Below, one piece after another: positions 55,651-56,325 of a DNA stretch of 60,077 bases. Positions within the stretch are counted from its first letter, which is position 1, and every line of letters starts with the position of its first letter. Source of the DNA: Candidatus Treponema merdequi (lineage in GTDB: Bacteria > Spirochaetota > Spirochaetia > Treponematales > Treponemataceae); assembly GCA_018064525.1 (NCBI GenBank), contig JAGHVB010000028.1:1-60077 (forward strand), written 5' to 3'. Under the pieces are notes generated by a model, which saw only the letters and a list, made by a program, of their open reading frames with translations, searched no databases and had not been told where the DNA came from. A program made the translations under genes and the position numbers.

Positions 55651-56325
55651 AGTAATTACGGTATGATTTTTGCGCTATGGTAAAATAACCCGTAAAAAAA
55701 CGATGATTGAAAAGATTTTTCAGGCGGAAAAAGTGGAATTACGGGTTAATTTACAGGGATTGCATACTAAACCCGTAATTTTTTCAAAAACCTGGGATTT
55801 TTTTATGAGAAAAAATGAAATTTACGGGTTTATCTGGCTGGAGCGTGTCGTTAACCCGTAAATTTTCTGAAAACTGGGGTATTTTTTATGGGAAAATCTG
55901 AAAATTACGGGTTTATTCGGCTGGAGCGTGTCGTTAACCCGTAAATTGCCTGAAAATTGGAGAATATCTTGGGGGAAAATTTGAAATTTACGGGTTAACT
56001 TGATATAAATGCTTAGTTAAACCGTAATCCACCTGAAGTCTTGGGGTTTTTTCTCAGAAAAATCTGTGGAATTACGGGTTAACTTGGGGGAAGCTGACAA
56101 AATAAACCGTAATTCTCCTGAAATCATGGGTTTTTTCTCAGAAAAATCTGTGGAATTACGGGTTAACACAGTTCATACGCATTACTAACCCGTAAATTTT
56201 TTGAAAATTGTTGTAGTGGAAATTAAAATTTACGGTATTATTCTGGTCAGGCGAGAATTTGACCCGTAATTCTCCTGAAATTATAGGCTCTTTTACAGAA
56301 AAATCTGTGGAATTACGGGATAAAC
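55651..56325. repeat. 83-bp palindromic tandem array with variable segments
   Basis: The motif ACGGGTTAA (or a near match) starts at 55658 (degenerate), 55741, 55824, 55907, 55990, 56074, 56158, 56232 and 56315, so the spacing is 83, 83, 83, 83, 84, 84, 74 and 83 bp. Each copy is followed by a variable segment of 18-20 bp and then the inverted motif TTAACCCGT. A conserved stretch of about 45 bp follows, containing CTGAAA, a T-run/A-run pair that can form a small hairpin, and TCTGTGGAATT. The array fills most of the gene-free 55540-56477. Short reading frames inside it are repeat artefacts. The 56341-56477 part adds a GCTTCTCC/GGAGAAG hairpin. Confidence 0.9.

Follow-up and report, generated by a model that had tools for sequence, protein, structure and literature searches.

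The stretch of 60,077 nucleotides from Candidatus Treponema merdequi analyzed here (the window) carries, at positions 55656 to 56319, a regular array of short sequence motifs (arms) arranged in inverted pairs. With somewhat better than even confidence, we read this array as the DNA half of a two-component repetitive element, present here as a solo copy. Its partner would be an array-linked PD-(D/E)XK nuclease, in this genome the product of a gene on another contig, C18.

Inverted arm pairs in the window

Nine forward arms of the TTACGGG type (at most one mismatch) follow one another at spacings of 83, 83, 83, 83, 84, 84, 74 and 83 bp, exactly as a preliminary description of this DNA had given them. 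Eight inverted arms (CCCGTAA or ACCGTAA) lie 33 to 34 bp past the first eight forward arms, which gives eight pairs of 40 to 41 bp and one single arm (Table 1). In 300 dinucleotide (Markov) shuffles, the maximum was two such pairs and the mean was 0.20, versus the eight observed. The eight units aligned at 70% mean column identity, and the conserved part of about 65 bp with inverted ends that had been described for each unit proved to be real. The inner segment of 18 to 20 bp, described as variable, does vary between units but is mostly common to units 3 and 4. Across species, the invariant unit was the arm pair (about three helical turns) rather than the 65-bp part, and the linker was the variable component, changing by steps of one helical turn. 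Tandem Repeats Finder recovered the array in part only, and the Rfam scan of the window matched no family.

The same arms adjoin a nuclease gene

The window array matched contig C18 of the same genome (G000; 2.70 Mb, 87 contigs) at two places, one a two-arm relic and the other an array. The C18 array has the same arms as the window array, with pair centers 83.5, 83.5, 73, 62.5 and 72.5 bp apart, and it adjoins and partly overlaps the start of a gene encoding a protein of 272 amino acids. The same arms stand there directly beside a nuclease gene, and we regard the window array as an orphan copy. The relic (L021 3949-4075; G000:C18:107948-108074) consists of inverted-type arms 83 bp apart. A run of genes on a single strand, many of them GNATs, has the relic at one end and the nuclease-linked array, 7 kb away, at the other. 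A second nuclease gene of the genome, on contig C43, has an 18-bp tandem repeat about 450 bp upstream.

Literal long-pattern searches and DNA similarity searches with the window array gave few matches beyond its own genome. A search pattern for the geometry (arm, 24-26 bp, inverted arm, 23-47 bp, arm, with the linker sequence free) found 49 stretches among 84,980 species genomes, nearly all of them in Lachnospiraceae/Clostridiales, mostly from the rumen, together with one in Treponema. When the genes within 4 kb of the arrays were clustered, a single clear family emerged, represented at nine loci by homologues of the C18 gene; the linkage of arrays to one protein family spans two phyla. A family match was present in 80 of 196 genomes of the source organism's genus, with up to 14 copies per genome, and all 13 genomes picked for TTACGGG arrays carried the nuclease family. 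Viral contigs and phage and plasmid records held nuclease-domain relatives only, one short phage-labelled contig reaching 76% coverage. Six geometry matches (L043, L048, L052, L068, L085 and L094) were set aside as chance or unrelated. L085, from Aphanothece hegewaldii, has 73-bp direct repeats, with more than 50 TTACGGG-containing copies at a period of 69 to 79 bp; it is CRISPR-like and unrelated to the phased arrays.

A repeat array that adjoins a nuclease gene, with GNAT genes nearby as in integron cassettes, might be viewed as an integron attC, CRISPR or TIGR array. To this we assign a negligible probability. The best match in the genome to the integron integrase model TIGR02249 scored 97 bits versus a cut-off of 265, and the integron idea, suggested by the GNAT genes and the attC-like size, was ruled out by this lack of an integrase above cut-off. 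There was no conserved direct repeat with unique spacers, no phage match to the array that would suggest phage-derived spacers, and no Nop domain, and the geometry of the unit is unlike that of TIGR.

A predicted PD-(D/E)XK nuclease

The linked proteins matched no Pfam or NCBIfam family above cut-off and no PDB sequence. The AlphaFold model, built on a 62-sequence alignment (pLDDT 95.8), has a helix at residues 13-36, strands at 42-68 and a long helix at 73-108, followed by a PD-(D/E)XK domain; the N-terminal region forms a coiled coil with a three-stranded tip. Residues E170, D200, E215, H216, K168 and R166 are invariant in the 62 sequences. Structural matches of the nuclease domain, modest in score, were I-Bth0305I (Z 8.1, root mean square deviation 2.7, 89 residues), Bax1 (Z 7.7), TnsA (Z 7.3) and VSR (Z 6.4). 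Comparison of the N-terminal domain alone returned coiled-coil look-alikes only and no convincing fold. The fold and the conserved motifs suggested that the protein is a PD-(D/E)XK nuclease, with predicted enzyme activity.

The C-terminal domain also matched the nuclease domain of the PADLOC defense candidates PDC-S68 and PDC-S69. Together with copy numbers of up to 14 per genome, the arms differing between copies, and with an array beside the gene as in RNA-antitoxin loci, this match would fit a defense or addiction module. In such a module the nuclease would be sequestered on the chromosome by the array in an inactive state and set free to cut when the array is lost or host DNA is degraded, and distinct copies would form a defense repertoire. 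We consider such a module improbable. The match covers only the nuclease domain (the C-terminal 120 residues in the PDC-S68 comparison) of proteins of about 1200 amino acids versus about 270 here. In addition, arrays are dispersed, and the gains and losses of arrays did not include the gene. In the PADLOC proteins this related domain (PDC-S68/S69, HEAT_CxxC_PDDEXK) forms the C-terminus, and the same domain is also present under plasmid gene labels reading "AAA family ATPase."

Arrays beside nuclease genes are phased by whole helical turns

In a census of 91 distinct full-length homologues, a linked array was defined as at least three pairs found by a strict detector. The array was upstream only in 60 genes, downstream only in 5 and on both sides in 2; it adjoined the gene in 67 cases and lay upstream in 62 of these. 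At least three pairs were present within 500 bp upstream of 52 of 76 genes; among 76 shuffles of these regions there was no such case, and among 73 control windows there was one. The nuclease-linked arrays of the census had 45 arm types. Arms differed between paralogues even in one genome (TTACGGG, TTACCAC, TACGGATAAA, TTCCGACTTAAC, GGCCTACAG, TACGTGAGGT, ACACGCG, TCATATAATTT and others), and Lachnospiraceae bacterium G41 had two paralogues about 2.6 kb apart with their own arrays, whose arms were TACGGGT and GCTCGTA.

The arm-to-arm distance inside a pair was constant at about three turns, the spacing between arms measured 20 to 52 bp in whole turns, and the pair-center distances clustered at 52, 63, 74, 84, 95, 105, 116 and 126 bp. 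When every spacing class was counted once per array, the pair spacing followed D = 10.59k - 0.5 with an rms residual of 0.95 bp and R = 0.86 (n = 109); in the phasing null of an earlier run, the 99.8% level was R = 0.31. Whole-turn phasing is expected if proteins must share one face of duplex DNA, and it argues against a folded RNA or single strand, which has no need for B-DNA turns.

At three loci (L123, L125 and L129), a conserved AATACTATATATA was found just ahead of the array, so that the array separates a likely promoter from the start codon. These loci are a syntenic nuclease locus in three species, with flanks 86 to 90% identical. For the L129/L125 pair, the nuclease gene was 83% and the array 67% identical, so that gene and array can outpace their neighbors in evolution. 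Among close homologues of gene plus array, some stand in different surroundings and others are syntenic.

Arms as probable duplex sites and the N-terminal domain

Arms such as TTACGGGT are not palindromic by themselves, and the inverted arms of a pair can form stems of 8 to 12 bp. A transcribed array could on that account be a series of RNA hairpins, serving as an antitoxin like those of type III toxin-antitoxin systems, as a guide RNA or as a decoy; the position of the arrays 5' of the nuclease gene, like that of type III antitoxin repeats, and the presence of up to 14 units would agree with this. If pairing were needed, the positions that border the conserved core should agree better within than between units. 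In 62 arrays with 268 units, the arms matched their own partner no better than the partners of other units at any position; the arm core is conserved as a sequence, not as a pair. The lack of compensatory pairing indicated that the arms are probably duplex binding sites rather than stems of RNA or single-stranded DNA. In some arrays the loops are identical between units, which argues against guides. With linkers quantized by the B-DNA turn, no phage match and no Rfam family in addition, we judge an RNA element to be very improbable.

In close species, the arms of nuclease-linked arrays diverged at 6.4% of positions versus 22% for the rest (Fisher p = 5e-21). The decay in related strains that the preliminary description had named as a possible refutation was not found, the arms being conserved about fourfold better than the rest. 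Among 55 nucleases with arrays, arm distance correlated with N-terminal distance when C-terminal distance was held constant (partial r = 0.37, with 0 of 2000 permutations as high), whereas its correlation with C-terminal distance, N-terminal distance held constant, was -0.05. The correlation was strongest at residues 46-75, which contain the strands, and at residues 91-105. This correlation, although short of proof, suggested that the N-terminal domain is the reader of the arms.

Dispersal, gain and loss of arrays

Solo (orphan) arrays occurred at several places per genome and were dispersed in Treponema and in Lachnospiraceae. In Butyrivibrio MB2005 and WCD3002, an element of 190 to 380 bp with sharp ends stands before different genes; it consists of a conserved leader of about 75 bp, 2 to 5 array units and the end CCCCGTAATAAAACAG, and several copies stop just ahead of the Shine-Dalgarno sequence of different genes. 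In G41, two loci share an array-bearing block of 267 bp at 99% identity. Comparison of sister Butyrivibrio genomes gave two empty sites: where G205 has a 322-bp element, G204 has 10 bp, and where G204 has a 523-bp insert that holds an element, G205 has 5 bp; the flanks match in both cases. These two sites indicated that arrays are gained or lost as units. Two of three orthologous Treponema orphan arrays lie in tracts of 1 to 5% divergence inside flanks diverged by 10 to 20%, and one such tract extends some 300 bp into coding sequence; of the two cases, only one comes from two good-quality genomes (99% complete). The tracts resemble co-conversion around a break and may have arisen in that way.

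Inverted ends, tandem copies, dispersed near-identical elements and empty sites are also features of a passive satellite or miniature inverted-repeat transposable element (MITE). On this view an ordinary transposase would move a tandem element with terminal inverted repeats that has no functional tie to the nuclease. We find this explanation barely credible in view of the association with a single protein family across two phyla, the 45 co-varying arm types, the arm-specific conservation, the whole-turn phasing and the lack of target-site duplication.

The strongest rival explanation is that the arrays are operators. The nuclease-fold protein would then be mainly a transcription regulator, the linked array would be autoregulatory, and dispersed arrays would bring other genes under the same control. 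The predominance of arrays 5' of the gene (62 of 67), their place behind a likely promoter in L123, L125 and L129, and the Butyrivibrio elements whose 75-bp leader and units end just before the Shine-Dalgarno sequence of different genes are all as an operator would have it. We nevertheless regard a mainly regulatory role as unlikely: the catalytic residues are invariant, some dispersed arrays are flanked by two stop codons or are remote from start codons, no promoter excess is seen in the window, and the downstream genes examined share no obvious function. Arrays between stop codons also weaken the notion that every array is a regulatory leader for the gene that follows.

Two orphan arrays illustrate the surroundings. 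In the Treponema genome G187, where none of the six nucleases found has TTACGGG arms, a TTACGGGT array (L041 198-552; G187:C44) ends 11 bp before the start codon of a peptidase-like gene. A conserved orphan TTCCGAC array (L285 1309-1650, next gene at 1685) has an ABC-F-like ATPase gene on one side and, on the other, a gene whose GHICPSADRT motif is of the non-specific DNA/RNA endonuclease type. The window array itself lies between two GNAT-like genes (Table 1). The longer one resembles a fusion of about three GNAT units, its relatives matching residues 1-174, 172-365 and 365-512 as separate genes. Homologues of the flanking GNAT (72 to 73% identity), compared in a search for an empty site of the window array, have no homology upstream of the start.

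Table 1. Positions of the arms, arrays and genes discussed; each arm pair begins with its forward arm, and positions are those of the window unless a contig is named.
Feature	Position	Span (bp)	Strand	Remarks
Whole orphan array	55656-56319			Cognate nuclease-linked array on contig C18
Arm pair 1	55656-55695	40		TTACGGT ... CCCGTAA; inverted arm starts at 55689
Arm pair 2	55739-55778	40		TTACGGG ... CCCGTAA; inverted arm starts at 55772
Arm pair 3	55822-55861	40		Inverted arm starts at 55855; inner 18-20 bp nearly the same as in pair 4
Arm pair 4	55905-55944	40		Inverted arm starts at 55938
Arm pair 5	55988-56027	40		TTACGGG ... ACCGTAA; inverted arm starts at 56021
Arm pair 6	56072-56112	41		TTACGGG ... 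ACCGTAA; inverted arm starts at 56106
Arm pair 7	56156-56195	40		Inverted arm starts at 56189
Arm pair 8	56230-56269	40		TTACGGT ... CCCGTAA; inverted arm starts at 56263; preceding linker one helical turn shorter
Ninth forward arm	56313-56319		+	Unpaired; end of array
GNAT-like gene, 517 amino acids	53986-55539		-	Array upstream of its start; context, outside the element
GNAT-like gene, 150 amino acids	56478-56930		-	Array downstream of its stop; context, outside the element
C18 nuclease-linked array	G000:C18 about 115100-115640 (L021 11106-11604)			
C18 nuclease gene, 272 amino acids	G000:C18:114351-115166			
Second nuclease of the genome	G000:C43:119401-120207 (L097 3899-4711)			36% identical; without recognizable array

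Proposed mechanism and its weight

In the mechanism that we propose, the arm (about 8 to 10 bp, here TTACGGGTTA) would be a sequence-specific duplex half-site, read by the coiled coil with three-stranded tip at the N terminus of the nuclease. One inverted pair would hold two protomers three helical turns apart, and further pairs at whole turns would align many protomers cooperatively on one face of the DNA. Binding at the gene-adjoining array would probably limit the nuclease's own expression. Arrays would be copied or inserted as units into other intergenic regions, most likely when breaks made or exploited by the nuclease are repaired from a template that bears an array, in parallel to the presumed spread of repetitive extragenic palindromic sequences (REPs) by REP-associated tyrosine transposases (RAYTs) and of homing genes by their endonucleases. 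The C18 enzyme would recognize the window array in trans. Of this mechanism, the arms, their phasing, the linkage to the gene, the co-variation with the N-terminal domain, the conservation of the arms, the dispersal and the two empty sites were observed; binding, self-regulation, cleavage and nuclease-driven spread are inferred, binding being probable and spread by the nuclease possible.

Of the interpretations offered in the preliminary description, both a protein-binding array and a mobile element are supported by the adjoining nucleases, the helical phasing, the tracking of the N-terminal domain and the gain and loss as units; the same-face arrangement expected from the 83-bp period of the palindromes holds across the whole family. 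Folding of an RNA or a single strand, by contrast, finds no support in the pairing of the arms.

Several observations weigh against a nuclease-driven two-component element. With the strict detector, 24 of the 91 census genes had no array, the C43 copy of this genome among them. The correlation of arms with the N-terminal domain is possibly inflated, as the N-terminal half evolves faster and resolves recent relationships better. Neither a target-site duplication nor a consistent end was seen at the two empty/occupied sites. The third orthologous orphan array has no low-divergence tract, and the tracts at the other two could partly reflect constraint or other recent recombination. Finally, G187 and G204 have TTACGGG arrays, and no nuclease with an adjoining TTACGGG array was found in either, the G187 assembly being 75% complete.

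More broadly, we hold the evidence to be evenly balanced on whether these systems form a new class, in which PD-(D/E)XK nucleases with an N-terminal reader of duplex DNA are matched to cognate arrays of inverted half-sites in whole-turn spacing. Such a class would have dozens of specificities, many co-resident in one genome, and solo copies that spread under nuclease control; it would be like RAYT/REPIN systems and independently evolved. We found no published description of such arrays or nucleases in a literature search that was thin on subscription papers and preprints, which limits the claim of novelty. If correct, this reading would explain one class of the intergenic arrays that gut and rumen bacteria carry. 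The 45 arm types paired with proteins are in effect a specificity table of arm sequence versus N-terminal sequence. Such a natural collection of proteins and sites would make the DNA-reading code directly testable, and it is a potential source of new compact sequence-specific DNA-binding modules.

Comparison with known systems

The preliminary description had placed the unit outside any known CRISPR, REP or integron form, and this still holds after the checks with Rfam, PF01797, phage sequences and TIGR02249. Unlike CRISPR, the conserved blocks are inverted arms, and the linkers are conserved between units. Unlike a MITE or insertion sequence, the element has no fixed ends or target-site duplication, and its unit number varies from 2 to 5. 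TIGR-Tas systems have edge and loop repeats of 8 to 12 nt, spacers of about 9 nt, a 36-nt guide RNA and a Nop-domain protein (PMC12045711). Our arrays are like them in having tandem short conserved blocks upstream or downstream of a nuclease, with locus-specific block sequences, but show none of the edge and loop repeats, 9-nt spacers, guide RNA or Nop domain, and their spacing is 20 to 52 bp in whole turns.

Type III toxin-antitoxin systems (ToxIN) likewise have an array of repeats immediately 5' of the gene for a nuclease. Repeats of the ToxIN type are direct and act as folded RNA, and the toxin is an endoribonuclease of a different fold. Structured RNA repeats are not supported here, given the lack of compensatory pairing and the DNA phasing. 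With TnsA of Tn7 the protein shares the PD-(D/E)XK endonuclease fold. At each end of Tn7 stand several spaced sites that are bound by TnsB, the partner of TnsA. Unlike in Tn7, no TnsB, TnsC or transposon ends were noted beside the genes, where no systematic search for them was made, and the N-terminal region has no TnsA match.

Homing endonucleases belong to selfish DNA that spreads through the repair of breaks, with flanking sequence co-converted, and I-Bth0305I dimerizes on a long target of about 60 bp (PMC3943268). The nuclease domain is like the EDxHD/PD-(D/E)XK members of this group, I-Bth0305I being its best match, and has a conserved acidic active site; the low-divergence tracts at orphan arrays find their closest parallel in break repair with co-conversion. 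Unlike homing endonuclease genes, the nuclease gene has no intron or intein and does not lie inside its target as far as seen, and what presumably serves as the binding platform is an array of many sites, also present where the gene is not.

In REP/REPIN systems with RAYTs (TnpA_REP), also called REPtrons, dispersed extragenic repeats, including bacterial interspersed mosaic elements (BIMEs), stand beside the gene of a DNA-cutting enzyme (PMC2817692, PMC3116915, PMC8266576). BIME repeats are regularly spaced in alternating orientation, and enzyme and repeat co-evolve (PMC2817692, PMC8266576). The element described here works most like these systems. It shares with them regularly spaced repeats of alternating orientation beside an enzyme gene, several paralogues per genome with different repeats, solo repeats elsewhere and the co-evolution of dispersed solo repeats with the enzyme; evolution of gene and repeats faster than their neighbors, reported for RAYTs, was seen here at L129/L125. 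It departs from them in three defining features. RAYTs are HUH Y1 transposases, whereas a PD-(D/E)XK fold is predicted here and five linked proteins had no match to PF01797 (HUH Y1 transposase) even at E 10. The REP is a palindromic hairpin with a GTAG/CGTC tag, whereas our arrays hold unpaired duplex half-sites in helically phased pairs of 45 types. RAYT genes have inverted repeats on both sides, whereas our arrays are usually on one (5') side. To our knowledge, bacterial two-component systems of an enzyme plus dispersed repeats are known in the HUH (RAYT/REP) form only. If our reading is correct, the element described here would be a second, unrelated form that acts on duplex DNA, and such sequence populations would arise repeatedly.
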